From the NCBI GenBank assembly GCA_017476785.1, contig JAFUZD010000119.1, forward strand, positions 1-46,056: 46,056 nucleotides of DNA, read 5' to 3'. This document shows, piece by piece, positions 1 through 17,977 of the stretch. Source of the stretch: Prevotella sp. (GTDB taxonomy: Bacteria > Bacteroidota > Bacteroidia > Bacteroidales > Bacteroidaceae). The notes beneath the pieces are model-generated. The model saw only the letters and a list, made by a program, of their open reading frames with translations, had not been told where the DNA came from and searched no databases. A program made the translations under genes and the position numbers. The stretch's first letter is position 1, and each line of letters opens with the position of its first letter.

Positions 1-2523
1 AACACCCTTCTGGTCGAGCACTTGGAACGGGTCTACCTTCAGAATCTTCTTCTCCAAGTAGACGGGGAGGAACGATGCGATGTCGTCGCGCGAGTAGCCG
101 AACGTCATCTGCGTCAGGTCGTTCGTACCGAACGAGAAGTATTCTGCCTCGGTAGCAATGCGGTCGGCAGTCAGGGCTGCACGCGGAATCTCGATCATCG
201 TACCAATCTCAAACTCCACTTCGATGCCCTCAGCCTCGAACACTTCCTTAGCGGCATGCTGGATGACTTCCTTCTGCTGCTTCAGCTCATAGAGCGTACC
301 AATCAGCGGCACCATAATCTCGGGCTTCGGATCCTTACCCTCTTTCTTCAGCTCGCAGGCTGCACCGAGGATGGCACGGGTCTGCATAGCGGTAATCTCG
401 GGGAACGTGATGCCCAGACGGCAGCCACGGTGACCCAGCATCGGGTTGTTCTCTGACAGCGAGTCCACACGGCGCTTGATAGCCTCTACGCTGACTCCCA
501 TCTCCTTAGCCATTGTCTCCTGACCGGCCAAATCGTGGGGAACGAACTCGTGGAGGGGCGGGTCGAGCAGACGGATGTTTACGGGCAGGCCGTCCATTGC
601 CTCAAGAATGCCCTTGAAGTCGGCCTTCTGATAGGGCAGCAGCTTGGCCAGTGCCTTCTCGCGTCCCTCGGCCGTGTCGCTCAGAATCATCTCGCGCATA
701 GCGATAATCTTCTTGTCGTCGAAGAACATATGCTCCGTACGCGTAAGACCGATACCCTTAGCACCGAAGGCGCGAGCCACGCGGGCGTCGTGCGGTGTGT
801 CGGCATTGGTGCGCACCTGCAGCTTGGTGTACTTGTCGCAGAGGTCCATCAGCTCCTTAAAGTCGCCACTCAGCTCAGCAGCCTTTGTGGGCACTTCGCC
901 AGCATACACCTGACCCGTCGTACCATTAATAGAAATATAGTCGCCTTCCTTATAGACTACGCCGTCAATCTCGACCGTCTTCTTGTGATAGTCCACATTC
1001 AGTGCACCCACACCGCTGACGCAGCACTTGCCCATACCGCGAGCCACCACGGCAGCGTGCGACGTCATACCGCCGCGAGCCGTGAGAATACCCTCGGCAG
1101 CAGCCATACCGGCGAGGTCTTCAGGCGAGGTCTCGATGCGCACCAGCACCACCTTATGGCCGTCCTCGTGCCAAGCCTTTGCGTCATCAGCGTGGAATAC
1201 AATCTGACCGCAACCGGCACCCGGGCTGGCGGGCAGGCCCTGTGCGATGACCTTAGCCTTAGCCAGTGCCACCTTATCGAACACCGGGTGGAGCAGCTCG
1301 TCGAGCTTGTTGGGCTCGCAGCGCTCAATGGCCGTCTTCTCGTCGATCATTCCTTCGTGCAGCAGGTCGATGGCAATCTTCACCATAGCCGAGCCCGTGC
1401 GCTTGCCGTTACGGGTCTGGAGGAACCACAGCTTGCCCTCCTGCACGGTGAACTCCATATCCTGCATATCGTGGTAGTGCTGTTCCAGCTTGTTCTGGAT
1501 GCCGTCCAGCTCCTTATAGATTTCGGGCATTGCCTCCTCCATCGAGGGATATTTCGAGGCGCGCTCTTCCTCAGAGATGCCTGCGCGCTCGGCCCAGCGC
1601 TGCGAACCCAGCTTCGTAATCTGCTGCGGCGTGCGGATACCAGCCACCACGTCTTCGCCCTGAGCGTTGACCAGATACTCACCGTTGAACACGTTCTCGC
1701 CGTTGGCAGCGTCGCGGCTGAAGCATACACCCGTAGCCGACGTGTCGCCCATATTACCGAACACCATAGCCATCACGCTCACGGCCGTACCCCACTCGTC
1801 GGGGATGCCTTCCATCTTGCGATAGAGGATGGCGCGCTCGTTCATCCAGCTGCGGAACACGGCGCAGATTGCGCCCCAGAGCTGCTCTATCGGGTCGTTG
1901 GGGAAGTCCTTGCCCGTGCGCTCCTTAATAGCGGTCTTGAAGCGCTTCACCAGCTCTTTCAGCTCGTCTACGCTCAGGTCCTTATCCAGCTTCACGCCGC
2001 GCACGGCTTTCACCTGCTCGATAATCTCCTCAAACGGGTCGATGTCTTCCTTATTCACCGGCTTCATCTCCAGCACCACGTCGCCGTACATCTGCACAAA
2101 GCGGCGGTACGAGTCGTATACGAAGTGGGGGTTGTTGGTCTTCTTCACCATACCCTCGGCCACCTCGTCGTTCAGACCGAGGTTGAGGATGGTGTCCATC
2201 ATACCCGGCATCGAAGCGCGTGCACCCGAACGGACGCTGACCAGCAGCGGGTTCTCCTTATCGCCGAACTTCGAGTTCATCAGTTCCTCAATGTGCTTCA
2301 CGGCGGCCATCACGTCGTCGTTGAGCAGCTGCATTATCTTCTCCTGACCTACCTCGTAGTATTCGTTACAGCAGTCAGTCGTAATGGTGAATCCCGGGGG
2401 AACGGGCACACCAATCAAGTTCATCTCGGCGAGGTTGGCACCCTTACCGCCGAGCTGCTCGCGCATCTGCGCGTTACCCTCGGCCTTACCGTTACCGAAG
2501 GTATAAACTCTTTTTTCGCTCAT
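1..2523 (-). CDS. ppdK: Pyruvate, phosphate dikinase (partial, C-terminus outside window)
   Basis: Interconverts pyruvate + ATP + Pi with PEP + AMP + PPi in the cytoplasm, a key step of PPi-linked glycolysis or gluconeogenesis in Bacteroidales. The 841 codons visible read without interruption from ATG at 2523 (MSEKRVYTFGNGKAEGN) to the window edge. The N-terminal nucleotide-binding region carries GGKGANLAEM and SVRSGARASMPGMMDT; the swivelling phosphohistidine domain has GGMTSHAAVVARG with the catalytic His at about residue 489; the PEP/pyruvate barrel begins after it, with GLTRTEHMFF and, near the edge, SFGTNDLTQMTFGYSRDD. Family members are roughly 900 residues, so about 60-70 residues including the catalytic-Cys segment lie beyond the left edge. 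It is divergent from the HU-family gene and has its own promoter. Confidence 0.97.
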   Translation of the reverse strand, partial: MSEKRVYTFGNGKAEGNAQMREQLGGKGANLAEMNLIGVPVPPGFTITTDCCNEYYEVGQEKIMQLLNDDVMAAVKHIEELMNSKFGDKENPLLVSVRSGARASMPGMMDTILNLGLNDEVAEGMVKKTNNPHFVYDSYRRFVQMYGDVVLEMKPVNKEDIDPFEEIIEQVKAVRGVKLDKDLSVDELKELVKRFKTAIKERTGKDFPNDPIEQLWGAICAVFRSWMNERAILYRKMEGIPDEWGTAVSVMAMVFGNMGDTSATGVCFSRDAANGENVFNGEYLVNAQGEDVVAGIRTPQQITKLGSQRWAERAGISEEERASKYPSMEEAMPEIYKELDGIQNKLEQHYHDMQDMEFTVQEGKLWFLQTRNGKRTGSAMVKIAIDLLHEGMIDEKTAIERCEPNKLDELLHPVFDKVALAKAKVIAQGLPASPGAGCGQIVFHADDAKAWHEDGHKVVLVRIETSPEDLAGMAAAEGILTARGGMTSHAAVVARGMGKCCVSGVGALNVDYHKKTVEIDGVVYKEGDYISINGTTGQVYAGEVPTKAAELSGDFKELMDLCDKYTKLQVRTNADTPHDARVARAFGAKGIGLTRTEHMFFDDKKIIAMREMILSDTAEGREKALAKLLPYQKADFKGILEAMDGLPVNIRLLDPPLHEFVPHDLAGQETMAKEMGVSVEAIKRRVDSLSENNPMLGHRGCRLGITFPEITAMQTRAILGAACELKKEGKDPKPEIMVPLIGTLYELKQQKEVIQHAAKEVFEAEGIEVEFEIGTMIEIPRAALTADRIATEAEYFSFGTNDLTQMTFGYSRDDIASFLPVYLEKKILKVDPFQVLDQKGV

Positions 2524-2573
2524 TAGTTTTAGTTATTATTTACGATTAACATTAAATTGATTTTTCGTAGACG

Positions 2574-2603
2574 CAAAGGTAATACTTTTCCGCCGAAACA
2601 CAA
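2574..2603 (-). promoter_or_regulatory. Promoter of ppdK
   Basis: On the minus strand TTG (2601-2603), 19 bp, then TACCTTTG (2574-2581) match the Bacteroidetes -33/-7 consensus. This places transcription start about 45 nt before the ppdK ATG. Between this and the opposing HU promoter (about 2604-2696) no feature was seen other than a short GGCC-rich inverted repeat near 2667-2680. Confidence 0.75.
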
Positions 2604-2696
2604 AAGAAAAAGGTGAAAAATTGCCAACCACACTTTACATTTCTATATTTCTGCGCGCCAATATAGGCCGCCGGCCAATGAAAAGTGGCCTAAAAC

Positions 2697-2727
2697 TTGC
2701 ATTCGCTTGTCTGATTTTGTATCTTTG
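2697..2727 (+). promoter_or_regulatory. Promoter of HU-family gene
   Basis: TTG at 2697-2699, 20 bp spacer and TATCTTTG at 2720-2727 match the Bacteroidetes -33/-7 pattern. Start of transcription is expected near 2733, which puts the palindrome array at 2746-2804 inside the 5' leader and gives a leader of about 120 nt before the ATG at 2855. Confidence 0.75.
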
Positions 2728-2743
2728 CACGGCTGGCGTGAGA

Positions 2744-2827
2744 ATGAATTCTCGCGAGAATTCGGACAATTCTCGCGAAAATTTCCCCAATTCTCGCGAG
2801 AATTCATCTTCAGGACATCCATATTAA
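2744..2827 (+). CDS. Possible 27-residue leader peptide with heptad repeat
   Basis: ATG at 2744 opens about 10 nt downstream of the predicted transcription start and runs to TAA at 2825-2827. The product is 27 residues and consists mostly of three NSREN(S/F)(D/P/S) heptads, because the 21-bp DNA repeat is seven codons long. It ends 27 nt before the HU-family ATG. It could be a real leader peptide affecting translation of the next gene, or merely an open frame forced by the DNA palindromes. I see no independent evidence of translation. Confidence 0.3.
   Translation: MNSRENSDNSRENFPNSRENSSSGHPY
2746..2805. repeat. Array of three 16-bp palindromes at 21-bp spacing (copy 1)
   Basis: Units of AATTCTCGCGAGAATT are centred at 2754/2755, 2775/2776 and 2796/2797, exactly 21 bp apart. 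The first extends to an 18-bp perfect palindrome (2746-2763), the third is perfect, and the middle has one altered half (CGAAAATT). The array lies in the predicted leader of the HU-family gene. The same arrangement recurs at 13680-13737. Two-turn spacing suggests repeated binding on one face of the helix; in RNA, units 1 and 3 could pair with each other. Confidence 0.9.
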
Positions 2828-2854
2828 TTAATCGTTAATACCAAACAACACACA

Positions 2855-3238
2855 ATGATCAGTTACATTATCCAAAAAGAAAAGAACAGTTCGCGGCCAT
2901 CGGCAGGGAAGTACGTGGCACGCGCAGTACACGACATCGTCAGCAACGAGCAGATAGAGCAGGAGATACAGCACGTCTGTTCGGCCACGCCGGCAGACGT
3001 AAAGCTGGTGCTCACGGCACTTTCAGACGCCCTGCGCCACCACCTGCAAAACGGCCACATCGTCAAGCTCGACGGCATTGGCCAGCTGAAGCTTGAGCTT
3101 GTCAACCACCCTGCCAGCACACTTGAGGAGTTTCGTGCCGACCGCAACATCAAGGGCGTCCGCCTGTGCGTAGTCCCCGAGAGTCGCAACGGCAGACAGA
3201 AGTTCTACGACGGCGTGAAGTTCAGACGGCTGGAGTGA
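2855..3238 (+). CDS. HU/IHF-family DNA-binding protein (Bacteroidetes HU-related type)
   Basis: The 127-residue protein resembles the Bacteroidetes hu-related DNA-binding family: an N-terminal extension (MISYIIQKEKN..GKYVARAV), the helical dimer region (VKLVLTALSDALRHHLQNGHIVKLDGIGQLKLEL) corresponding to the HU body, and a basic arm region ending GVKFRRLE. Such proteins bind and bend DNA; a specific role is not known. Start is ATG at 2855; it is followed directly by a strong terminator, so the gene is probably transcribed alone. The phased palindromes in its leader make autoregulation an attractive inference, but that is not shown by the sequence. Confidence 0.9.
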   Translation: MISYIIQKEKNSSRPSAGKYVARAVHDIVSNEQIEQEIQHVCSATPADVKLVLTALSDALRHHLQNGHIVKLDGIGQLKLELVNHPASTLEEFRADRNIKGVRLCVVPESRNGRQKFYDGVKFRRLE

Positions 3239-3242
3239 GCGA

Positions 3243-3285
3243 GATTGGCCCGATTTCAACGAAATTGGGCCAATCTTCTTTTTTT
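3243..3285 (+). terminator. Rho-independent terminator after HU-family gene
   Basis: A 15-bp stem (3243-3257 with 3261-3275, one G-T pair) around a three-base loop is followed by a run of eight T residues within 3279-3286. Confidence 0.9.
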
Positions 3286-3299
3286 TCAGAATTTTGATG

Positions 3300-3307
3300 T
3301 ATATTTG
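3300..3307 (+). promoter_or_regulatory. -7 element for rlmD
   Basis: TATATTTG matches the Bacteroidetes -7 motif; no clear -33 TTG at the expected distance. It overlaps an upstream in-frame ATG at 3294, which argues that translation starts later, at 3330. Confidence 0.55.
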
Positions 3308-3329
3308 CATTCGCAAACTAATCAACGTT

Positions 3330-4781
3330 ATGACGCGAAAGAAGAAACCGCTACCAATACTGGAGAACATAGAAATAACCGACTTTGCTGCTGAAGGGAA
3401 ATCGCTGGCACGGGTGAACGAGATGGTGGTCTTTGTGCCGTGGACGGTGCCGGGCGACGTCGTTGACTTGCAGGTGCGCCGCAAGAAGCACAGCTTTATG
3501 GAGGCTGAGGTCATCCGCTTCATTGCGCCCAGCCCCCTGCGCCGTCAGCCGTTCTGCCAGCACTTCGGCACGTGCGGCGGCTGCAAGTGGCAGATGCTGC
3601 CCTACGAGGAGCAGCTGCGGATGAAGCAGCAGCAGGTGCACGACCAGCTGACACGCATCGGGAAGGTGGAACTGCCCGAGCTGCGTCCTATTATGGGCAG
3701 CGCCAAGACGCAGGAGTACCGTAACAAGCTGGACTTTGGGGCGTCGAACCGACGCTATCTGACAACGGAGGAAATCAAGAGCGGGCGCGAGTTCCAGCGC
3801 GATGCACTGGGATTCCACATCACGGGCGCCTTCGACAAGATTCTGCCCATCGAGAAGTGCTGGCTGATGGACGACCTTCACAACCGCATACGCAAGGAAA
3901 TACGCGACTATGCCATTGCCAACGGCATCGCATTCTTTGACCTGCGCGCGCAGACGGGACTGCTGCGCGATGTCATCATCCGCAACTCAAACACGGGCGA
4001 ATGGATGGTCATCGTGCAGTTCCACTACGACGAGCCGGCCGACGAGAGCCGGGCTCAGAAGCTCTTGCAGCACGTTGCCGATAAGTTCCCGGAAATCAGC
4101 GCATTGCTCTATTTGGATAATCAAAAATGCAACGATACCATCGGCGACCAAGAGATACTGGTATTCAAAGGCAACGACCACATCTTCGAGACGATGGAAG
4201 ACCTGCGCTTTAAGGTGGGACCGAAGAGCTTCTACCAGACTAACACCGAGCAGGCCTACCATCTGTACAGCGTCGTGCGCGAGCTGGCATTTCAGTCTTC
4301 AGCGCAGCCCTCGGCACCCAGCCCTCAGCCCGAAGCACTCCCGCTGATTTACGACCTGTACACTGGCACCGGCACCATTGCCAACTTCGTGGCGCGGCAG
4401 GCACGGCAGGTCATCGGCATCGAATACGTGCCCGAGGCCATTGAGGACGCAAAGGTGAACTCGCAGCTGAACGGCATCGACAACACGCTGTTCTACGCCG
4501 GAGATATGAAGGACATACTGACCGACGACTTCATCGCCCGCCACGGGCAGCCCGACGTCATCATCACCGACCCGCCACGGGCCGGGATGCATCCCGACGT
4601 GGTGAAGACCATCCTGCGGGCAGCTCCGCAGCGCATCGTCTACGTCAGTTGCAACCCCGCCACGCAGGCCCGCGACTTGGCCGACCTCGATGCAGCCTAT
4701 CGGGTGGAAGCTGTGCAGCCGGTGGATATGTTCCCCCATACGCCGCACGTTGAGAATGTAGTATTACTAACCAAAAGATAA
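3330..4781 (+). CDS. rlmD: 23S rRNA (uracil-5-)-methyltransferase, RlmD/RumA type
   Basis: A SAM-dependent m5U methyltransferase of the TrmA/RumA family, acting on 23S rRNA. From the chosen start (MTRKKKPLPILENIEITDFA, 483 residues) a TRAM-like RNA-binding domain fills the first ~60 residues, then iron-sulfur ligands C76, C82, C85 (CQHFGTCGGC) and C177, and the Rossmann methyltransferase domain with DLYTGTGTIANF and the nucleophile C441 in VSCNPATQARDL. An ATG at 3294 is also in frame, but the -7 box lies over it. A proline/serine-rich linker (SSAQPSAPSPQPEALP) precedes the SAM motif. The porin gene follows after only 5 nt. Which uracil is modified (1939 or 747, or both) cannot be decided here. 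Confidence 0.9.
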   Translation: MTRKKKPLPILENIEITDFAAEGKSLARVNEMVVFVPWTVPGDVVDLQVRRKKHSFMEAEVIRFIAPSPLRRQPFCQHFGTCGGCKWQMLPYEEQLRMKQQQVHDQLTRIGKVELPELRPIMGSAKTQEYRNKLDFGASNRRYLTTEEIKSGREFQRDALGFHITGAFDKILPIEKCWLMDDLHNRIRKEIRDYAIANGIAFFDLRAQTGLLRDVIIRNSNTGEWMVIVQFHYDEPADESRAQKLLQHVADKFPEISALLYLDNQKCNDTIGDQEILVFKGNDHIFETMEDLRFKVGPKSFYQTNTEQAYHLYSVVRELAFQSSAQPSAPSPQPEALPLIYDLYTGTGTIANFVARQARQVIGIEYVPEAIEDAKVNSQLNGIDNTLFYAGDMKDILTDDFIARHGQPDVIITDPPRAGMHPDVVKTILRAAPQRIVYVSCNPATQARDLADLDAAYRVEAVQPVDMFPHTPHVENVVLLTKR

Positions 4782-4786
4782 TCACA

Positions 4787-5875
4787 ATGAAAAAACTATT
4801 GACACTGGCTCTGATGGCTTGCACGCTGACTGCCAATGCCCAAGAGCAAAAAACTACGAACAACAGCGACATTCCCCAGTGGGTGAAGAACATAAAGTTA
4901 AGCGGATATGGTATGGTGCAATATCAGGCTGACGACAAGTACAAGAACACCGTCAATGAGAACGGCGAGCCCGACGTGGCCAAGAACTCAGAGAATGCAT
5001 TCAACCTGCGACTGCTGCGTCTGATTCTGGACGGCAAAATCGGCGACGTGGCGTGGCGCGCACAGGTGCAGGGCTCGTCAAATCCCGGCCCGGGAAATGC
5101 TACCGCCTATCTCGTCGACCTGTATGCCGAGTGGCAGAAGTACGACTTCTTCCGCGTGAAGGTGGGCCAGTTCAAGCGTGCCTTCACCTTTGAGAACCCC
5201 ACCCACCCCATCACACAGGGTTGGTACTCGTATGCTATGGTGGTCAACAACCTGTCGGGCTTCGGCGACCGCACGGGCGAGAAGTCGTCGGGTGGACGCG
5301 ACATCGGTCTGCAGGTGCAGGGCGACTTCCTGAAGAATGCCTCTGGCCGCAACCTCATCCACTATCAGGTGGGCGTCTACAACGGCGAGGGCATCAACAC
5401 CAAGGATAAGGACAACCGCAAAGACATCATCGGCGGACTGTGGGTGATGCCCGTAAAGGGACTGCGCATCGGTGCTTTCGGATGGACAGGAAGCCGGGCC
5501 GACGTGGGCGAGAAGAACCGCTACGCTCTGTCGGCTGAGTGGGATAAGGACGACTGGACTTTCCGCACGGAGTACATCCACAGCCAAGGCTACGGTGCCG
5601 ACCGCAGCTTGGTCGACAAAGCCGATGGTTTCTACGCTTTCGGCATCGCGCCCGTGATATCGAAAAAGCTGTACGCAAAGGCACGCTACAACCTCTACCG
5701 CCAAGCTAAGGAATGGGGCTCGTCGATGTCGATGTACGAGGTGGGCGTCAACTATATGTTTACCAAGAACCTACAACTGAACGTGGAGTATGCCCGGGTG
5801 AACGACCGCACCATCATCAAGTCCGACAAGCACAACTACAACTTCTTTGATGCGCAGCTCGACTTCAGGTTCTGA
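4787..5875 (+). CDS. OprO/OprP-type porin
   Basis: A 362-residue outer-membrane protein with signal peptide MKKLLTLALMACTLTANAQ, then a barrel with alternating hydrophobic strands, ending in the sequence DFRF with the terminal aromatic residue typical of outer-membrane barrels. Segments such as LRLLRLILDGKIGDVAWRAQ, YAEWQKYDFFRVKVGQFK and GRDIGLQVQGDF fit the phosphate-selective porin O/P family. The true substrate is unknown; in Bacteroidetes these porins are not reliably phosphate-specific. It starts 5 nt after rlmD and lacks its own promoter, so it is read in the same operon. Confidence 0.88.
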   Translation: MKKLLTLALMACTLTANAQEQKTTNNSDIPQWVKNIKLSGYGMVQYQADDKYKNTVNENGEPDVAKNSENAFNLRLLRLILDGKIGDVAWRAQVQGSSNPGPGNATAYLVDLYAEWQKYDFFRVKVGQFKRAFTFENPTHPITQGWYSYAMVVNNLSGFGDRTGEKSSGGRDIGLQVQGDFLKNASGRNLIHYQVGVYNGEGINTKDKDNRKDIIGGLWVMPVKGLRIGAFGWTGSRADVGEKNRYALSAEWDKDDWTFRTEYIHSQGYGADRSLVDKADGFYAFGIAPVISKKLYAKARYNLYRQAKEWGSSMSMYEVGVNYMFTKNLQLNVEYARVNDRTIIKSDKHNYNFFDAQLDFRF

Positions 5876-5906
5876 CAGTAGGCACGCATCCGTGAAACAA
5901 ACGAGA

Positions 5907-5940
5907 AAAGGGTTGAAGCAACGCACGGCTTCAACCCTTT
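5907..5940. terminator. Bidirectional terminator between porin and flippase genes
   Basis: A perfect 13-bp stem (5907-5919 with 5928-5940) with an 8-base loop. On plus it is followed by ATCTTTTTC; on minus by CGTTTGTTT-type sequence. The stop codon and last codons of the flippase gene (TCA at 5931-5933 on plus) lie inside the stem. Confidence 0.8.
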
Positions 5941-7412
5941 ATCTTTTTCATCAACGACTGCCACAGATTCGTCTTCTTCTTTAATATGTATAAGGAGAAG
6001 CCCGCACTGAGCGCCATCAGCAGACTGCCCAGCAGCCAATACGCCACTCCGCTGACCCACAGCGTCAATGCATAGGTTGCCACGCCCAATGCAATCTGGA
6101 AGGCAGCATAGCGCACCACGACCGGCGACATTCGGTACTGATAGCGCCAGTAGGCATAGCCCAGCACCAGCAGGAAGTCGAACACATAGGCCACCGTGAT
6201 GGCGACGCCTGCCCCCAAAAGTCCCCAGTGATTGAAACCGGCCATCATCAGCAGCACGAACACCACATAGTACACCCCGTCGAGCAAGAGGAAGGACAAC
6301 GAATAGCCGCGAGCCAACGTGATATAGGCCACGGGAAGCGTGAGCACACGCATATACATTGCCAGCGCGGCCGTCTGTGCCATCTCTATGACCGGCAGGA
6401 ACGCGTTGCTGAACATCAGCGGAATCAGCAGCGGCAACCACACTATCAACACGACGAGCATCGGCGAGATGATGAGCAGCGAAACGGCCATCTGCTGGTT
6501 AGCCACGTTGTTGGTTGCCTCGATATCCTGATTGACGGCCGAGAGTCGCGGGAAATAGTCGGTCTCCATTGCCGAAAACACCATCCCGGCATAGGTAACG
6601 GTCAGCATATAACCGGCATTGTAGAGGCCCAGCATATCCAAGTTGCCGCTGACGTTGAGGAACGAGCGGATAAACATCTCGGCTCCAGTGCCAATAATAC
6701 CTGCCAGCGTGAAGGCCACACCCAGCTTCACCATCTCCATCCCCTCGCCAAAGATTCCCTTCGCGCCTCTGACCTGATAGGGGAAAAGGCGGAACGACGA
6801 GCGGAGCGTCAGCAGCATCACGGCTAATGCCATCAGCGTAATGACCGGCACGATACCCGTCTCGCCAAAGAAATAGTAAATGGGCATTGATATCAGCAGC
6901 GCAGCAAACACAGAGGCAATCTGGATGCCTGCCAGCGACTTGAGCTGGCGCGCTCCCTTCAGAATGGCCGTCTCGCCACCCGTGACAGCTATCATTGCCA
7001 CCGTGGGGGCCAAGAGGACGAAGTGGAGCGTGTGGTCGCCCCAAGAGAAGGTGTAGCGGCTGAGCAATGGGCCCACGACGATGCATACCAGCATACCGGC
7101 AAGCGCGGTCAGCAGGCTCCAGCCACGCACCACTTTGACAAAGTGGGCAATGCGCTGCCGGTCGCCGCTGTCGAACAGCTCGGACACGTGACGCACCGCG
7201 CTGAACGAGATGCCAAGATTAGTAGCCTGAGAAATAAAGTTGATGGTGGTATTGAACAGCGATGCCAGTCCCATTCCGCCCGGCCCCAGCAAGATGGCTA
7301 CAAGCTTATTGCGTACAAGCCCTATCAGAATGTTCAGGCCCTGCACGCCGCCGAAGATGCCGGTATACTTCAATATATGGCTATAGCTTTCTTCGCTATT
7401 CTTTTCTGTCAT
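5931..7412 (-). CDS. Wzx-like O-antigen/polysaccharide flippase
   Basis: A 493-residue, strongly hydrophobic protein with about a dozen predicted membrane segments and a short cytosolic start (MTEKNSEESYSHILKYTGIFGGVQGLNILIGLVRNKLVAILLGPGGMGLASLFN). The opening GGVQGLNILIGLVRNKLVAILLGP pattern and overall length fit the polysaccharide biosynthesis (MATE-like/Wzx) superfamily, which moves lipid-linked sugar units from the inner to the outer leaflet of the cytoplasmic membrane. It ends in KKIKG within a terminator. No convincing promoter was found upstream. It lies head to head with three glycosyltransferase genes, supporting a role in one surface glycan pathway. Confidence 0.88.
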   Translation of the reverse strand: MTEKNSEESYSHILKYTGIFGGVQGLNILIGLVRNKLVAILLGPGGMGLASLFNTTINFISQATNLGISFSAVRHVSELFDSGDRQRIAHFVKVVRGWSLLTALAGMLVCIVVGPLLSRYTFSWGDHTLHFVLLAPTVAMIAVTGGETAILKGARQLKSLAGIQIASVFAALLISMPIYYFFGETGIVPVITLMALAVMLLTLRSSFRLFPYQVRGAKGIFGEGMEMVKLGVAFTLAGIIGTGAEMFIRSFLNVSGNLDMLGLYNAGYMLTVTYAGMVFSAMETDYFPRLSAVNQDIEATNNVANQQMAVSLLIISPMLVVLIVWLPLLIPLMFSNAFLPVIEMAQTAALAMYMRVLTLPVAYITLARGYSLSFLLLDGVYYVVFVLLMMAGFNHWGLLGAGVAITVAYVFDFLLVLGYAYWRYQYRMSPVVVRYAAFQIALGVATYALTLWVSGVAYWLLGSLLMALSAGFSLYILKKKTNLWQSLMKKIKG

Positions 7413-7457
7413 TACATTTAACTTAACGCTGCAAACCCCATTTTATTGCAGGAGGAT

Positions 7458-7488
7458 TTGGCTATTTAGCATTTTTACTCTATCTTTG
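7458..7488 (+). promoter_or_regulatory. Promoter of glycosyltransferase operon
   Basis: TTG (7458-7460), 20 bp, TATCTTTG (7481-7488) is an excellent -33/-7 match. Transcription should begin near 7493-7495, at or next to the first ATGs (7491, 7497), so the mRNA is predicted to be leaderless or nearly so. Confidence 0.75.
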
Positions 7489-7490
7489 CA

Positions 7491-8402
7491 ATGAATATGG
7501 GCAAGCCGGCACTGACTGTTATTATCCCTGTATATCGCGTGGAGGACACGCTCGACAGATGCATCCAGAGCGTGGTCGGACAAGCGGCAGAAGGGATGGA
7601 AATCATTCTCGTGGATGATGGCTCAGATGATTCGTGCCCGCAGCGATGCGACGAATGGGCCCGGCAAGACGAGCGCATTCTGGTCGTCCACCAGCCAAAC
7701 GGCGGGCTGAGCAAAGCCCGCAATGCGGGGCTTGATATAGCCCGAGGCGACTACATCACGTTTGTCGACTCTGACGACTACATTGAGGCTGGCACCTACC
7801 CTGCTCTGCTCCGTCTCTTGCAGCAGCATCCCGACTACGACCTCTTAGAGTTTCCATACGAGAAAGACCGCGTATACACGTTCGGCGAGCAGACCTACGA
7901 GGATGTCGGCGACTACTGGCTTCGGTGCCAAGCCTACAGCCATACGTTCGCCTGCAACAAGATTTATCGGCGGGCACTGTTCGACGAAGTGCGCTTCCCA
8001 AAGGGAATGCTCTTCGAAGATGCCTACACGCTGCCGCTACTGCTGAAGGCAGCCAAGCGAGTGGCTACGACCGAGACCGGCAGATATCACTACACCATCA
8101 ATCCCAAGGGCATCACGGCTACGGCCGATGGCAATGGGCTGGCAATGCTACTCAATGCTCATCTGGGCAACGGAATGCCGATGGACGACCGCTATTATAT
8201 GCACCTGCTCAACATCCAGATGGATGTCTACGAGCTGACCGACGCGCCCATCAAGCTATCAGCGCGCAGGGTCAGCACGCAGGGGCTTCCTCTCAAGATG
8301 AAAGCGAAAGCTATTCTTAATAACACAATAGGAATCAGACGATTATGCAGACTCAACAAAGCACTTCACAAGATAAGAAACCGCTTGTCAGCTTCGTCGT
8401 GA
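7491..8402 (+). CDS. Glycosyltransferase family 2
   Basis: A 303-residue GT-A fold enzyme. The nucleotide-sugar site is clear: LTVIIPVYRVEDTLDRCIQSV, EIILVDDGSDDS, GGLSKARNAGLDIARGDYITFVDSDDY with the metal-binding D93-x-D95. It transfers an unidentified sugar to a growing glycan on the cytosolic face. ATG codons at 7491 and 7497 are both possible; the promoter position favours 7497 (MGKPALTV). Its last 58 nt overlap the next glycosyltransferase gene in another frame, implying translational coupling. First gene of a three-gene operon divergent from the flippase. Confidence 0.9.
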   Translation: MNMGKPALTVIIPVYRVEDTLDRCIQSVVGQAAEGMEIILVDDGSDDSCPQRCDEWARQDERILVVHQPNGGLSKARNAGLDIARGDYITFVDSDDYIEAGTYPALLRLLQQHPDYDLLEFPYEKDRVYTFGEQTYEDVGDYWLRCQAYSHTFACNKIYRRALFDEVRFPKGMLFEDAYTLPLLLKAAKRVATTETGRYHYTINPKGITATADGNGLAMLLNAHLGNGMPMDDRYYMHLLNIQMDVYELTDAPIKLSARRVSTQGLPLKMKAKAILNNTIGIRRLCRLNKALHKIRNRLSASS

Positions 8403-9331
8403 CTTACTACAATCTTCCCGTCGAGTGGCTGCGCAGATGTATTGACAGCATCCTCGCACTGCCGCTCACCGACACCGAGCGGGAGATTATCGTAGTCGAC
8501 GATGGGTCGGACGACAGCCCGATGAAGGTGATTGCAGAATATGGCGACCACCTCATCTACCTGTGGGAAAAGAACGGCGGGCTGAGTGTGGCGCGCAATA
8601 AGGGAATCAGCGTAGCCACCGGTCAATACCTGCAGTTTGTCGATGCGGACGACTTCCTGATAAAGGAGCCTTACGGGCATTGTCTGGACATTGCCCGTCA
8701 TCAATCGCCCGATATGGTCATCTTCGACTTCACCGACGATGACACCCAGCAGCCCGCATTCACGACTTCTGCCCCCGAAAGCGGCAGCCACTACCTGCGC
8801 CACCACAACATCAGGGCTACGGCGTGGGGCTATCTGTTCAAGAAGTCGTGCCTAAGCGAGCTGCGCTTCACCGACCGCATCTATCACGAAGACGAAGAGT
8901 TCACTCCGTTGCTGTTGCTGCGGGCCGACACCGTCGTCACGACCGACGCAAAAGCCTATTGCTACCAGAAGCGGGCTGACTCGATAATGACCAGCCAAGA
9001 GCCCAAGAACGTACAGAAACGGCTGGACGACACGCGAGACGTCATCCTCAGGCTCAATGCGACAGCCGACACACTGCCCGCTCCCGAGCATAAGGCGATG
9101 CAACGAAGAGTGGCCCAACTGACGATGGACTATATCTACAACATCATCTGCCAGACGCGAGACCGCCAGCAACTCAGCGGCAGGATTGCCGAACTGAGAG
9201 CGAACGGGCTGTTCCCCCTGCCCGACCGAAAGTACACCAAGAAATACACTTGGTTCCGGCGGATGAGCAGCAACCGCGCCGGACTGGCACTGCTGTTCCA
9301 TATCCTGCCTGCGCTGAAGAAAGAAAGATAA
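8345..9331 (+). CDS. Glycosyltransferase family 2
   Basis: A 328-residue GT-A glycosyltransferase: VSFVVTYYNLPVEWLRRCIDSI, EIIVVDDGSDDSP, NGGLSVARNKGISVATGQYLQFVDADDF with D100-A-D102 as the metal/nucleotide motif. The region RIYHEDEEFTPLLLLRAD is the typical acceptor-side ED segment of capsule-type GT2 enzymes. Donor and acceptor sugars are unknown. It starts inside the preceding gene (58-nt overlap) and ends 4 nt before the next one. The C-terminal ~130 residues are helical and basic and may lie against the membrane. Confidence 0.9.
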   Translation: MQTQQSTSQDKKPLVSFVVTYYNLPVEWLRRCIDSILALPLTDTEREIIVVDDGSDDSPMKVIAEYGDHLIYLWEKNGGLSVARNKGISVATGQYLQFVDADDFLIKEPYGHCLDIARHQSPDMVIFDFTDDDTQQPAFTTSAPESGSHYLRHHNIRATAWGYLFKKSCLSELRFTDRIYHEDEEFTPLLLLRADTVVTTDAKAYCYQKRADSIMTSQEPKNVQKRLDDTRDVILRLNATADTLPAPEHKAMQRRVAQLTMDYIYNIICQTRDRQQLSGRIAELRANGLFPLPDRKYTKKYTWFRRMSSNRAGLALLFHILPALKKER

Positions 9332-9335
9332 GAAG

Positions 9336-10430
9336 ATGAAGATACTACTGCTCAACGAATGTAGCAACGTGCACGCCACGCTGGCAAAGGGACTCAGGGA
9401 ACTGGGCCACACGGTGACCGTGGTCTCCGGCGGCAACGGCTGGCGCAACTACCCGCGCGACATCTCTATTGTGCGCCGCTCTGCCTCCCATCTTGATGGC
9501 ATCCGCTACATTGCACAGCTCTATGCCACCCTACCGCGCCTGCGGGGCTACGATGCCGTGCAGATCAACAACCCCATCTTCTTCGACATCAGGGCCGAGC
9601 GGCTGTTTGCTGTCTACAACTACCTGCGCCGCCACAACGGGGCGATGGTGATGGGAGCCTTCGGAACCGACTATTACTGGGTGCATACGTGTATGAACGA
9701 CAAGCCGCTGCGATACAGCGACCACAACTTCGGCGACGAGGTGCGCACAGGGCCAGAGGCCTTAGTCGACCAGCGCGAATGGATTGGGACGACGAAGGAA
9801 AGGCTCAACCGATACATTGCAGCCGACTGCGATGGCATCGTGCCCTGCTTGTACGAATACTGGGCGTGCTATCAGCCCGTCTTCCCCGACAAGACCCGCT
9901 TCATCCCGCTCCCCATCGTGATGCCCGACAACGTTGCCGTCAGACCGCACGACCGTCTGAAAGTGTTCATCGGCATCGACCGCGACCGCAATGTCTATAA
10001 AGGAACGGACATTATGCTCCGCGCTGCCCAAGACCTGCTGACACGCTATCCGGAGCAGATGGAACTGCAGATTGCCGAGTCGGTGCCCTTTGCCGAGTAC
10101 GAGCAGATGATGAACGACAGCGACGTCATTCTGGACCAGCTGTACAGCTACACGCCTTCAATGAACTCACTGCTGGCAATGTCCAAAGGCATCGTGGTCA
10201 TCGGGGGCGGCGAACCCGAGAACTATGAGCTCATCAATGAAAAGGAGCTGCGGCCCATCATCAACGTGCAACCCAGCTACGAGAGCGTCTATATGGAACT
10301 GGAGCAGCTGCTGCTCCATCCCGAACGCCTGCCCGAGCTGAAGCGGCAGAGCATCGAATACGTCCGCCGCCATCACGACTACCGCAGCGTAGCCCGCCAG
10401 TACGCCGACTTCTACCAAGACCTACGCTGA
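9336..10430 (+). CDS. Glycosyltransferase, GT-B fold (GT4-like)
   Basis: A 364-residue protein beginning MKILLLNECSNVHATLAKGLRELGHTVTVVSGG, the N-terminal Rossmann domain of a GT-B glycosyltransferase. The C-terminal domain has VFIGIDRDRNVYKGTDIMLRAAQDLL, DSDVILDQLYSYTPSMNSLLAMSKGIVVIGGGEPENYE, corresponding to the donor-binding region of GT4-like enzymes. It probably adds a sugar in the same pathway as the two preceding GT2 enzymes, 4 nt upstream. Specificity cannot be read from the sequence. Confidence 0.85.
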   Translation: MKILLLNECSNVHATLAKGLRELGHTVTVVSGGNGWRNYPRDISIVRRSASHLDGIRYIAQLYATLPRLRGYDAVQINNPIFFDIRAERLFAVYNYLRRHNGAMVMGAFGTDYYWVHTCMNDKPLRYSDHNFGDEVRTGPEALVDQREWIGTTKERLNRYIAADCDGIVPCLYEYWACYQPVFPDKTRFIPLPIVMPDNVAVRPHDRLKVFIGIDRDRNVYKGTDIMLRAAQDLLTRYPEQMELQIAESVPFAEYEQMMNDSDVILDQLYSYTPSMNSLLAMSKGIVVIGGGEPENYELINEKELRPIINVQPSYESVYMELEQLLLHPERLPELKRQSIEYVRRHHDYRSVARQYADFYQDLR

Positions 10431-10457
10431 GCCAACTCCGCCAGACAGCACAAAAAG

Positions 10458-10496
10458 AAGGGCAGGAAATCCCATTGATAGGGATTTCCTGCCCTT
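10458..10496. terminator. Terminator shared by glycosyltransferase operon and rpsP
   Basis: A perfect 16-bp stem (10458-10473 with 10481-10496) around a 7-base loop. The T-rich tail (CTTTTTG) is on the minus side, so it chiefly serves rpsP; on plus only a weak T tract follows. Confidence 0.88.
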
Positions 10497-10523
10497 ACGC
10501 ATTGTTCCTTTTCGAGAAGCGGC

Positions 10524-11078
10524 TTATGCCTCTGCGGGTGCAGCCTCTTCTGCGGGAGCCTCAGCAGCAGCCTCTTCGGCAGCCTTTGCAGCCTCAGCTT
10601 CAGCCTTGGCAGCAGCAGCGGCAGCTTTCTTGTCAGCCACCTTCTGGGCAATTGCCTCGTTAATCTTCTTCTCTGCCTCAAGCTCCTTTGCCACAGCTTC
10701 CTTCTTGGCCTTAGCCTCCTGCTCGCGGATAGCGTCGCTACCCTTCACTTTGTCAGCTTTCCAAGCGTCAAACTTCTTCTGAGCAGTTGCCTCGTCGAAA
10801 GCGCCCTTCTTTACGCCACCACGCAGGTGCTTCATCAGGTAAACGCCCTCACGGCTAAGAATGTTGCGGACGGTGTCCGTAGGCTGTGCACCGGTTTCTA
10901 CCCAATAGAGGGCACGGTCGAAATTCAGATCTACTGTGGCAGGATTGGTGTTAGGATTGTACGTACCAATCTTCTCAGTAAACTTACCATCACGTGGTGC
11001 TCTTGCGTCAGCGATGACGATGCGATAGAAGGCATAGCCCTTACGACCGCCGCGCTGCAATCTGATTTTTGTTGCCAT
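10524..11078 (-). CDS. rpsP: 30S ribosomal protein S16 with long C-terminal tail
   Basis: The first ~80 residues ([42 protein letters not shown]...) are canonical S16, a small-subunit protein that binds 16S rRNA. Usual bacterial S16 is about 80-90 residues; this one is 184, with a charged helical segment followed by an Ala/Glu/Lys-rich tail ([23 protein letters not shown]). Extended S16 is usual in Bacteroidetes; the role of the tail is unknown. It has its own promoter and a strong terminator, so is probably monocistronic. Confidence 0.97.
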
Positions 11079-11140
11079 TTTTTAATGAATGTTTTAATTA
11101 ATAAATTGAATTCCGTGCTACTATCTCGTAATAGCGGCTG

Positions 11141-11148
11141 CAAAGGTA
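11141..11148 (-). promoter_or_regulatory. -7 element for rpsP
   Basis: TACCTTTG on the minus strand, about 60 nt before the rpsP ATG. No clear -33 TTG at the usual spacing. The stretch 11149-11235 beyond it holds nothing else recognisable and no hairpin for the gene ending at 11236. Confidence 0.6.
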
Positions 11149-11235
11149 GGCATTTTAGCTGAGAGTTGAGAACGGGGAACGGAGAGTTTAAGCATTATTA
11201 ACATAACGCACGGCCCCGCGGTTTGCCGTCTTCTC

Positions 11236-11865
11236 TTACTGCTTGGTCAGTGTCAAACCAGCCTGCATCCCCGTCACTTTGTTCATCAGCGAGGTGATGG
11301 TCTTCAGATTGGCATTGCCCGATGCATTGCCTACGGTCTTGAAGAGCTCCAGCAGCTTGGTGGCATCGGTCACGAACTGCAGCGTCTTTCCGCTCAGCTG
11401 CGTGGTCAGTGCGATGGTCTTCACGCCGCCATAGGTCATCTGCAGCTTCTTGTCCTGCACGGTCCACTTGCCCGAGATGGTCTTCGAGCCGATTGTCTCG
11501 GTGAACGTGCCGTCCGACTTGAGCGTCAACGACATTGCGCCGGGCTTGATGCCCACCTTATTCAATTGCGTCTGCAGCTTCTTCTCTACCTGCTTGGCGG
11601 CCACTTTGGCGGCAGTGTTGGTCAGGAAGTTGTCCGACTGAAACACCACGGCAGGCTCTGTGTACACCCAAGTCCCCGCCAGATTTTCGGCAGAAGCCTG
11701 CTTGTCGCCAGAGAATACGGAAGTCAGGTTGGACACGATGTCGCCCGTACTGCCCGAACCGAGCACGCCGCCGACGATATTTCCCAAGTCAATCTGTGCG
11801 TTCGCACTTACGCCGGACATCAGCATCAGGCTGAGTGCTGCGGCTTTCAACGAAATTTTCTTCAT
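11236..11865 (-). CDS. DUF4923-like secreted protein
   Basis: A 209-residue exported protein with signal peptide MKKISLKAAALSLMLMSGVSANAQ. The mature part contains LAGTWVYTEPAVVFQSDN and LKSDGTFTETIGSKTISGKWTVQDKKLQMTYGG, a lipocalin-like beta-barrel pattern as found in the DUF4923 family of Bacteroidetes. No enzymatic motif is seen; family function is unknown. Single gene with its own promoter. Confidence 0.8.
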   Translation of the reverse strand: MKKISLKAAALSLMLMSGVSANAQIDLGNIVGGVLGSGSTGDIVSNLTSVFSGDKQASAENLAGTWVYTEPAVVFQSDNFLTNTAAKVAAKQVEKKLQTQLNKVGIKPGAMSLTLKSDGTFTETIGSKTISGKWTVQDKKLQMTYGGVKTIALTTQLSGKTLQFVTDATKLLELFKTVGNASGNANLKTITSLMNKVTGMQAGLTLTKQ

Positions 11866-11902
11866 ATCAATTTGTATTTAAATGACGTTTAGTTTCGAGT
11901 GG

Positions 11903-11933
11903 CAAAATTACGATTTTAAGTCATAATGCCCAA
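11903..11933 (-). promoter_or_regulatory. Promoter of DUF4923 gene
   Basis: On minus: TTG (11931-11933), 20 bp, TAATTTTG (11903-11910). This gives a leader of about 35 nt. Confidence 0.7.
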
Positions 11934-11972
11934 ATTATTTAGATGAAATTTCCTTTTATAACTTTTTTTGAG

Positions 11973-11980
11973 TATTTTTG
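11973..11980 (+). promoter_or_regulatory. -7 element for glycosyltransferase at 12010
   Basis: TATTTTTG matches the -7 motif; no TTG at 19-20 bp upstream. It lies within the codons that would be used by an upstream TTG start at 11968, so the start at 12010 is preferred. Confidence 0.5.
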
Positions 11981-12009
11981 CAAGCATCGCAACAATCACC
12001 GAGACGACA

Positions 12010-12906
12010 ATGAATACACCCGCCAAGAACGAGCTCTCAATCCTGATTCCGACCTACAACGATGTCTGTACGTCACTGGTTGAGGCACTGTGCCGGCAGG
12101 CCGAGCCGACGGGCATACGCTACGAGGTCATCGTGGCCGACGACGGGTCGACCCGCCGCGACGTGATTGAGGCCAACCGGGCCATTAATGCCCAACCCAA
12201 CTGCCGCTACATTGAGCGAGCGGAGAACAGTGGGCGGGCGGCCATCCGCAACTTTCTGGCACAGCAAGCCCGCTACCACTGGCTGCTCTTCATCGACGGC
12301 GATATGATGATGGCTGCCGACGACTATCTGCAACGCTACCTACGGTGCGAGGCGACGACGGTCATCGACGGCGGCGTGGTCATCAAGGGCGATGCCAAGC
12401 AGTATGCCCACAACCTGCGCTACCTGTATGAAGAACGGGCTGCACAGCACCATACGAGCGAGAGGCGGCAGCAGAAGCCCTATCAAGACTTCCACACAGC
12501 CAACTTCCTCATCCGCCGCGACCTGATGCTCGCCCACCCTTTCGACCTCCGTTTCCGCCACTATGGCTATGAGGACGTGCTCTTTGGAAAGACAATGCAG
12601 CAGAACGGCATCCCGCTGGCGCACATCGACAACCCGATGAGCTTCGAGGTGTTTGAGTCCAATACCCATTTCATTGCCAAGACCGAGGAGGGACTGCGCA
12701 CGCTCCGGCAGTTCAGCAGCGAGCTGAGAGGCTACAATGCGCTGCTCGACACGACGCAGCGGCTGAAGCGATACCACGTAGTCCTGCCGCTCGTCAGATG
12801 CTGGCACCGCCTTTTCGGAGCCGCCGAGCGCCGCAACCTGACGGGTTGCCGCCCATTCCTGCCCCTGTTCCAAGTCTATCGGCTGGGCTACTTCCTGTCG
12901 CTTTAG
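12010..12906 (+). CDS. Glycosyltransferase family 2
   Basis: A 298-residue GT2 enzyme from ATG at 12010 (MNTPAKNELSILIPTYNDVC). It shows EVIVADDGSTRRDV, ENSGRAAIRNFLAQQARYHWLLFIDGDMMM with D96-G-D98, and the acceptor-side segment FRHYGYEDVLFGKTMQQNG. It is not in the 7.5-10.4 kb operon and has its own promoter, but the function is probably also in glycan assembly. It ends in a terminator hairpin. Confidence 0.88.
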   Translation: MNTPAKNELSILIPTYNDVCTSLVEALCRQAEPTGIRYEVIVADDGSTRRDVIEANRAINAQPNCRYIERAENSGRAAIRNFLAQQARYHWLLFIDGDMMMAADDYLQRYLRCEATTVIDGGVVIKGDAKQYAHNLRYLYEERAAQHHTSERRQQKPYQDFHTANFLIRRDLMLAHPFDLRFRHYGYEDVLFGKTMQQNGIPLAHIDNPMSFEVFESNTHFIAKTEEGLRTLRQFSSELRGYNALLDTTQRLKRYHVVLPLVRCWHRLFGAAERRNLTGCRPFLPLFQVYRLGYFLSL

Positions 12907-12928
12907 CGGCTGATGACAGTCAAAAAAT

Positions 12929-12966
12929 GAGGAGAGGTGAACGCTTTCGTGCGTCCACCTCTCCTC
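12929..12966. terminator. Terminator between glycosyltransferase and small exported protein gene
   Basis: An 11-bp stem (12929-12939 with 12956-12966) with a partly self-complementary loop (ACGC/GCGT). The T6 run is on the minus side, serving the gene ending at 12986; on plus only GTTTAG follows. Confidence 0.8.
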
Positions 12967-12985
12967 GTTTAGTCAAGTATAGTTT

Positions 12986-13477
12986 TTATTCGTTGTTCTC
13001 TGTCAGGTCAGTATTCGACGGCAGTGCCTGAAACGTCAGCTTCGTATAGCCTTTGAAGTCGTCGAACTGCAGTTGGAAGTTGGCATACTGATAGAAGTTG
13101 CCGCCCGTGTTGTGGGTGTCGCGAATCGGCTTGCTCTTAGCAAGCGCGTTCAGGATGCGGTTGTAGACCACGTTATCGTCGGCGTCGTCGGCAATCTGTA
13201 CGGTCTCCGAGACGACGACCCCGTCCTGAACCCGATAGGTATAGTCACCGGCAGCATAGAGCTGGAAAGCATCGGTCTCGAGTATCGGCTCCAGTTCGCC
13301 CACCTGTGCCTGCAGGTCTTCCAGCGTCAGGTTCACTTTGTTGATAGGCTCCTGATTGGCATCCAACTGAATATACTGATTGTCCACTTCCGCTACTTCC
13401 TGTGCATTGGCAAACGTGGCACCGAACAATACCAGTGCACTTGCAAACAATATTCTCTTCATTTCTTTCATTGTCAT
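12986..13477 (-). CDS. Small exported protein of unknown function
   Basis: 163 residues as given; ATG codons at 13477, 13471 and 13462 are all possible, and 13462 (MKRILFASALVLFGATFANAQ) starts right at the signal peptide. The mature domain is acidic with TLEDLQAQVGELEPILETDAFQLYAAGDYTYRVQDGVVVSE and ends FQALPSNTDLTENNE. I do not recognise the family. It has a -7 element about 60 nt upstream and a strong terminator, so is a single-gene unit. Confidence 0.78.
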   Translation of the reverse strand: MTMKEMKRILFASALVLFGATFANAQEVAEVDNQYIQLDANQEPINKVNLTLEDLQAQVGELEPILETDAFQLYAAGDYTYRVQDGVVVSETVQIADDADDNVVYNRILNALAKSKPIRDTHNTGGNFYQYANFQLQFDDFKGYTKLTFQALPSNTDLTENNE

Positions 13478-13538
13478 CTTCTTTTAATTCTTACCTTTTC
13501 GAGCCAAATTGGTTTTAGTTTTCTCCTTTTTGACAATG

Positions 13539-13546
13539 CAAAGATA
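13539..13546 (-). promoter_or_regulatory. -7 element for gene at 12986-13477
   Basis: TATCTTTG on minus. No -33 TTG at 19-20 bp. The palindrome array (13680-13737) lies about 135-190 bp upstream. Confidence 0.6.
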
Positions 13547-13605
13547 ATAAATTAAAAGAAAACCGACCGCATTTTCAACTAAAAAAGTGTGAAAAATACC
13601 ATTCA

Positions 13606-13649
13606 TTAGGTAACTTTTTGACGCTTATCAAGCGATAAAGTGTACCTAA
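13606..13649. repeat. Imperfect 44-nt inverted repeat
   Basis: Arms TTAGGTA/TACCTAA, ACTTT/AAAGT and CGCTT/AAGCG nest around an ATC loop, 17 pairs in all with a small internal loop and a single-base bulge. There is no T-run, so it does not look like a classic terminator. It lies 30 bp from the second palindrome array, in the 3' region of the phytase-like gene. Function unknown. Confidence 0.6.
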
Positions 13650-13679
13650 CGACAGCCTCAGCGCAGGAAAACGAGAAAA

Positions 13680-13737
13680 AATTCTCGCGTAAATTCTAAA
13701 AATTCTCGCGAGAATTTCTGGAATTCTCGCGAGAATT
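13680..13737. repeat. Array of three 16-bp palindromes at 21-bp spacing (copy 2)
   Basis: Units of AATTCTCGCGAGAATT are centred at 13687/13688 (degenerate, right half CGTAAATT), 13708/13709 and 13729/13730 (both perfect), again exactly 21 bp apart as at 2746-2805. The array begins 8 nt after the stop codon of the phytase-like gene, so it would be its 3' UTR, and it is upstream of the exported-protein gene on the same strand. Confidence 0.9.
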
Positions 13738-13745
13738 TGCGCTGG

Positions 13746-17977
<4,232 letters not shown>

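Follow-up and report, generated by a model that had tools for sequence, protein, structure and literature searches.

The 46,056-nucleotide stretch of Prevotella sp. DNA analyzed here (the window), which is contig 82 among the 139 of a draft genome (2.72 Mb, 89% complete), carries two arrays of phased palindromes, and its genome contains about sixty such 58-bp elements, which are intergenic and distributed chromosome-wide. We tentatively regard these arrays as cis-acting docking sites for three protein dimers with a chromosome-scale role, a reading to which we assign a probability of roughly 0.4. Our best guess overall is that they are lineage-specific arrays, possibly MITE-derived, that have been kept as putative binding sites.

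Arrays in the window and across its genome

Array 1 (positions 2747–2804) consists of three 16-bp palindromic units at a 21-bp pitch, separated by the 5-bp spacers CGGAC and TCCCC, and the same arrangement of three units at the same pitch recurs in array 2 (13680–13737), as a preliminary description of this DNA had reported; neither array is assigned a strand. That description also had the motif occurring three times in array 1, and the 21-bp spacing holds, but the sequence is exact in only two of the units: units 1 (2747–2762) and 3 (2789–2804) are perfect palindromes with 0 mismatches, whereas the middle unit (2768–2783) has one mismatch (AATTCTCGCGAAAATT) and the variant right half GAAAATT. 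In array 2, units 2 (13701–13716) and 3 (13722–13737) are perfect palindromes, and unit 1 (13680–13695) has two mismatches (AATTCTCGCGTAAATT) and the variant right half GTAAATT. The perfect AATTCTCGCGAGAATT accounts for four of the six units of the window, in which six matches at up to 3 mismatches were found against 0.19 expected, a count of six being reached in 0 of 100 shuffles.

Array 2 is located 8 bp past the stop codon of a minus-strand gene (13746–14861) and 202 bp before another minus-strand gene that starts at 13477. Array 1 indeed lies, as previously proposed, between a predicted start and an HU-family gene: it begins 20 bp beyond TATCTTTG (2720–2727, plus strand), which points into it and which we take to be a Bacteroidetes-type promoter element, and it ends 50 bp before an HU-HIG domain gene (2855–3238, plus strand; PF18291, E 3.2e-18). 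The HU-HIG gene is a neighbor of array 1, with no evidence of membership in the array system. Within positions 1700–4700 of the window, PPDK is 84–88% identical to its best relatives and rlmD about 75%.

In the whole genome, AATTCTCGCGNNAATT is matched 124 times in the forward and 119 times in the reverse orientation, with 0 for the reversed-pattern control. A degenerate exact triple pattern gave 56 matches, corresponding to 55 complete arrays (reversed-pattern control, 0), and a looser search for three units in register at up to 3 mismatches added little, with 61 forward matches (control, 0); both counts include one four-unit array twice. Exactly three units are present in 51 of 56 clusters (first 361 kb), one of the 51 having two poor units. 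Of the five remaining clusters, two are pairs located at contig ends, two are weak matches that stand alone, and one is an array of four units, the fourth of them poor. Scattering at random single positions, which the preliminary description had named as an outcome that would refute a function, is not what was found: 103 of the 104 perfect copies of TTCTCGCGAGAA in this genome lie within arrays (98 belong to the 55 triples, and 5 to three other arrays, one degenerate and two at contig ends), while one was not placed.

Units, spacers, and flanks

The half-site consensus of the 55 arrays is AATTCT, with the variant halves AATTTT (30), AATTTA (23), GATTCT (9), and AATCCA (5) as well as rarer forms. 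Variants of the AATTTT type occupy 22 of 110 middle halves versus 8 of 220 outer halves, and AATTTA is the inner half of an outer unit in 13 of its 23 occurrences. One unit is imperfect in 37 of the 55 arrays and none in a single array, the expectations under independence being 22.5 and 9.2, respectively. Read from the outer units toward the middle, the spacers approximate T-T-C-R-R, and 95 of 110 begin with T.

Mean identity is 0.58 for the spacers and 0.93 for the units, the latter value being raised by a search pattern that fixes CGCG and part of AATT, and the two are uncorrelated across 1485 array pairs (-0.006). The invariance of CGCG in the 55 arrays is therefore present by construction. 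Since the units are conserved and the divergent spacers are not correlated with them, the arrays do not appear to have arisen by the copying of a master without selection on the units, which suggests, as far as sequence comparison goes, that selection acts on the palindromes as predicted protein-binding sites. The view that the strict phasing reflects function is supported, and protein binding is its best reading. Subfamilies by descent were also considered and rejected, as the identities of units and spacers are uncorrelated.

Flanking the 58 bp, the arrays share a weak signal that reads outward over about 8 bases per side, and positions near +22 and +28 stand out more faintly; the first outward flank base is a pyrimidine in 108 of 110 cases. 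Past about 8 bp, the flanks of this genome's arrays are neither conserved nor inverted, and a hidden orientation or longer element was not detected by EM, the orientation of which was no better than that of 10 controls with swapped flanks. Beside these arrays, outward-pointing copies of CCGTCAG are enriched, with 8 in 6.6 kb where about 1.6 would be expected, and no copy points inward.

Placement and spacing

Placement was assessed for 55 clusters (the 56 minus one weak single match), which hold 51 of the 55 triples. None of these clusters lies inside a predicted gene, although 90% of the DNA is coding; with a cruder gene caller, 1 of 58 clusters does. Tandem gaps hold 26 of them, divergent gaps 15, convergent gaps 10, and contig edges 4, a class mix similar to the background of 80 tandem, 39 divergent, and 26 convergent gaps in the same DNA, with the array gaps counted in.

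A Pfam run on 58 of the 59 genes that face a cluster by their 5' end, 6 of the 58 being without a family at E 0.001, returned enzymes, transporters, TonB receptors, a tRNA synthetase, DnaA, a gyrase-B-type protein, MutH, an AAA helicase, and HU-HIG, and no common theme was evident by eye. The special link to the HU gene in the preliminary description is not borne out, HU-HIG being 1 of the 58 annotated genes, and this suggests that the HU gene is incidental to the arrays.

Neighboring triples within a contig (17 gaps) are separated by at least 10,256 bp. When positions are drawn at random within these contigs, 7.4 gaps shorter than 10 kb are expected, and a complete lack of such gaps, as observed (0 of 17), was obtained in 0 of 20,000 simulations; with random placement over all contigs, in which lengths were approximated for contigs without arrays, 7.5 such gaps are expected and none occurred in 2 of 5000 simulations. 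This over-dispersion could stem from recombination loss between close copies. On contig 31 of this genome (G000, L083:13469–15512), one array lies 579 bp upstream of dnaA, with others on its two sides, 14 and 12 kb away. A macrodomain or origin bias finds no support: over the part of the dnaA contig that was read, GC skew does not clearly switch at dnaA, and it changes sign near 44 kb without the change being sustained.

Distribution in relatives

Arrays of the kind found in the window (family 1) are present in 1 of 398 same-genus genomes, which were drawn from a larger genus. In the 397 others, TTCTCGCGAGAA occurs at most twice each and is present in 47 genomes, which is about the chance level because the reversed control is present in 37; the motif is therefore not kept upstream of orthologues, the second outcome that had been named in advance as speaking against a function. 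The pair pattern was found in 0 of 59 relatives and the array pattern in no contig among the GTDB 220 genomes (this genome perhaps being excluded), and no arrays were met in 134 kb scanned earlier at 39 loci of relatives. No array was picked up in 503 kb of relatives by a detector of three strict units, which was thus too strict, as that DNA contains the arrays of relative G275. Viral carriage was rejected since none of the exact patterns of family 1 and of two further families was met in an IMG/VR contig.

These two families were found by pair detectors, which weaker families may escape, in scans that covered five relatives (397 kb), a further 400 kb of G275, and 39 stretches drawn from as many relatives (662 kb), sampling being thin for most relatives. 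Family 2 (GGCAGCGGCCGCTGCC, 22-bp pitch) is present in 12 of the 398 genomes at up to 2 mismatches, with 101 pair matches in G275, 104 in G083, and 1–2 in ten others; its palindromes and half-sites lie inside a longer conserved repeat (L155, L174–L193, L225, L253–L258, and L284–L290). Family 3 (ACAACAGCTGTTGT, 22-bp pitch) is present in 3 of the 398 genomes (G069, G066, and G330) at up to 3 mismatches and, in a named collection, in 24 stretches, of which 14 are from Segatella copri iA622, 9 from Indica, and one from a Prevotella MAG. Its arrays in the Segatella copri group (L271–L283 and L292–L315) have three or four 18-bp palindromic units (GCACAACAGCTGTTGTGC) between inverted flanks. Conserved flanks are longer in families 2 and 3 than in family 1, and those of family 3 are inverted over about 40 bp as judged by eye.

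Of 33 unique family 3 arrays, 28 were placed, and only one of these lies in a divergent gap against 20 of 99 background gaps (56 tandem, 23 convergent, and 20 divergent); the placement of this family is therefore not neutral, unlike that of family 1. The closed genome of G069 has 14 arrays of a family other than family 1 with a smallest gap of about 54 kb and no significant exclusion zone, the largest gap being 0.24 of the genome (P about 0.4 by a hand estimate). Positional homology between families was rejected: among the neighbor proteins compared (107, 32, and 68 for families 1, 2, and 3, the 68 including four loci twice), family 1 shares one neighbor gene with family 2 and none with family 3.

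Five loci with family 3 arrays were matched between genomes, by DNA matches on one or both sides at loci A (Indica L298 and iA622 L295), B (G069 L274 and iA622 L294), and D (G069 L276 and iA622 L297) and by one-side matches at unequal distances from the array at loci C (G069 L275, iA622 L292, and Indica L282) and E (G069 L272 and iA622 L305). At loci C and E, the units are 82–92% identical and the spacers 67–92%, with 100-bp flanks at 0.55–0.72, random sequence giving 0.58 ± 0.03; one locus-C pair has spacers as well conserved as its units (0.92 and 0.92). The units at locus A are 92% identical, with flanks at 0.88 and 0.71; the arrays at locus B are 79% alike, with flanks at 0.59 and 0.58; and locus D, 94–99% alike throughout, is for that reason uninformative. 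Since non-orthologous arrays have a mean likeness of 79% (30 pairs), a value that arrays at matching loci exceed by little and those at locus B not at all, constraint is not distinguishable here from concerted evolution.

Other phased repeats were seen in single relatives. In G275, four GAAACGGCGCCGTTTC-like units at a 21–22-bp pitch form an isolated array (L154:16231–16312), which represents a possible fourth family. In 120 kb of G181, a single 22-bp pair (TGATAGTTATCA) was seen, made up of two near-identical GTATGATAGTTATCAC units with degenerate copies on either side (L159:16606–16645), and it does not recur in that DNA. In 60 kb of G370, an AT-rich pair 22 bp apart was noted along with a run at an 18-bp pitch, and no such array family was found in 120 kb of G219 or 40 kb of G141. 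The 16-mer was not met in the papers searched, and the titles and opening lines of abstracts gave no account of such Prevotella arrays, which is no proof that none has been published.

Discussion

On the docking-site reading, each array would hold three dimers of a single sequence-specific DNA-binding protein along one helix face, since 16-bp palindromes at a 21-bp pitch are two helical turns apart, and about sixty such sites, which occupy intergenic positions across the chromosome and keep a distance of 10 kb or more on one contig, may serve nucleoid organization, segregation, or division-site control in the manner of Noc or SlmA sites. We infer a dimeric protein on the units, its cooperative binding, and a chromosome-scale role: cooperative binding of three dimers fits because the units are kept while spacers and flanks are lost, because the pitch is two turns, and because lone units are nearly absent, and a chromosome-scale role rather than the control of neighboring genes is favored by the orientation-neutral placement, the lack of a neighbor theme, and the over-dispersed spacing. 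The restriction of family 1 to one of 398 genomes would be surprising if the chromosome function were a core one.

The arrays have single features in common with BrickBuilt, REPs, and Noc and SlmA sites, but lack a defining feature of BrickBuilt, REPIN, and Noc. Noc and SlmA sites are single palindromes, whereas the arrays are phased triples. The likeness lies in the tens of dispersed palindromes, about 70 for Noc in Bacillus subtilis and 24–52 for SlmA in E. coli, which serve one chromosome-scale DNA-binding protein according to the portion of PMC4726725 that treats them. In this genome, 89% complete, a second ParB-family gene was not found, and the presence of only one ParB_N match indicates that there is no Noc-type paralogue. 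The centromere site parS is also a 16-bp palindrome, but with a different sequence and as few sites near the origin, unlike about 60 dispersed triples. A site within 2 mismatches of parS was not found in 602 kb and the ParB locus, one being present at 3 mismatches. ParB was rejected as the reader of the arrays since the sole ParB keeps R173 and G201 in an alignment read by eye, residues that go with parS in the part of PMC7383237 on ParB/Noc specificity.

A mobile origin is the most serious alternative and a quite plausible one, though we would stop short of preferring it: the arrays may be selfish or domesticated MITE-like repeats resembling BrickBuilt, non-autonomous, with an internal palindrome minisatellite and a transposase acting in trans, and so old in this species that only the protein-binding units are left. 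Repeats of mobile origin fit because the occurrence is patchy; it is also species-specific, with high copy numbers in few genomes, and the longer conserved flanks of families 2 and 3, inverted in family 3, make a MITE-like origin plausible. As described in PMC4596501, the BrickBuilt MITE of Porphyromonas gingivalis, which is also in Bacteroidales, is dispersed, intergenic, species-limited, and built from short tandem repeats, with a repeat pitch of 23 nt, near two helical turns; the intergenic position is shared by family 1 (0 of 55 clusters inside a gene). The same source gives BrickBuilt spacerless repeats, a leader and tail with inverted ends, and 19 copies in one strain, whereas the arrays are 16-bp palindromes with variable 5-bp spacers, nearly always in three units and about 60 copies, and those of this genome have no leader or tail inverted repeats and no conserved ends beyond about 8 bp. 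Target-site duplications, noted for three of four intact BrickBuilt copies in that account (PMC4596501), gave no signal among the 55 arrays at lengths of 2–9 bp, with 2 at 2 bp (1.94 in shuffles), 1 at 5 bp (0.1 in shuffles), and 0 at the other lengths, and insertion with such duplication was rejected. Further points against a mobile origin are the lack of correlation between spacers and units, the absence of the array pattern from IMG/VR, and the presence of family 3 arrays at matching loci across S. copri genomes.

Like REP and REPIN sequences, the arrays are short dispersed palindromes with an often species-specific sequence, but the former are mostly singlets and dimers according to PMC3733652, unlike trimers in a fixed 21-bp register. 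RAYT (Y1_Tnp, PF01797), the sole transposase family searched, had 0 matches in this genome, which is 89% complete, with control matches in 5 of 14 genomes; a REP/RAYT origin was rejected on this basis, and the result also weighs against a MITE-like one. Beside the arrays, GTAG is not enriched (1.36 per kb versus a background of 3.5), and the corresponding values are 7.7 versus 6.3 for CGTC and 1.21 versus 0.24 for CCGTCAG, the distance of which is variable.

We consider it improbable that the arrays are operators of a global transcription regulator controlling adjacent promoters. Within 120 bp, 26 of the 55 arrays have the promoter-like TAnnTTTG pointing outward and 5 have it pointing inward (15 and 2, respectively, within 60 bp), and many arrays thus lie just upstream of promoters; array 1, located behind a promoter-like element, is unusual in this respect, an inward TAnnTTTG being the exception. 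However, 10 of the 55 clusters are between convergent genes in a background-like class mix, the 58 annotated neighbors have no evident theme, and a regulon is not expected to show a 10 kb minimum spacing.

Hairpins in RNA or single strands, acting as terminators, stabilizers of mRNA 3' ends, or leader structures, are still more doubtful. For the two window arrays, the folding energies of the 58-nt RNA are -25.2 and -26.2 kcal/mol, values that have no shuffle control, and in 21 of 26 tandem gaps the cluster is nearer the 3' end of the upstream gene. Nevertheless, the spacers show no covariation: spacer 1 agrees with the reverse complement of spacer 2 at 123 of 275 positions, below the 137 ± 6.7 of shuffles, and a selected long hairpin was rejected on this ground, which likewise disfavors the RNA structure offered in the preliminary description. 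The single imperfect unit in 37 of 55 arrays breaks the symmetry rather than keeping it, 15 of the 51 clusters placed in gaps are between divergent genes, and positions 2500–14000 of the window contain no Rfam match. An autoregulatory operator specific to the HU-family gene, suggested by the position of array 1 between a promoter-like element and that gene, is hardly credible given the single HU-HIG gene among the 58 facing genes, the absence of family 1 from relatives, and the 127 bp between the PPDK and rlmD matches in relative G265, which leave no room for the HU-HIG gene.

Returning to docking sites, a broader proposition, which we hold to be rather unlikely as a whole, is that Prevotella and Segatella possess previously undescribed chromosome-organizing sites in the form of phased arrays of three or four palindromes, with the specificity of the reader and the sites themselves (AATTCTCGCGAGAATT, GGCAGCGGCCGCTGCC, and ACAACAGCTGTTGT) turning over by lineage. 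To our knowledge, no Noc-, SlmA-, or MatP-like system is known in Bacteroidota. If the arrays are docking sites, they would provide a handle on nucleoid marking in this phylum and would imply that whole sets of sites are replaced between related species; if they are MITE-derived, they would represent a clear case of selection keeping the protein-binding part alone. In either case, the Segatella copri family makes this a question that is testable in strains with public genomes.
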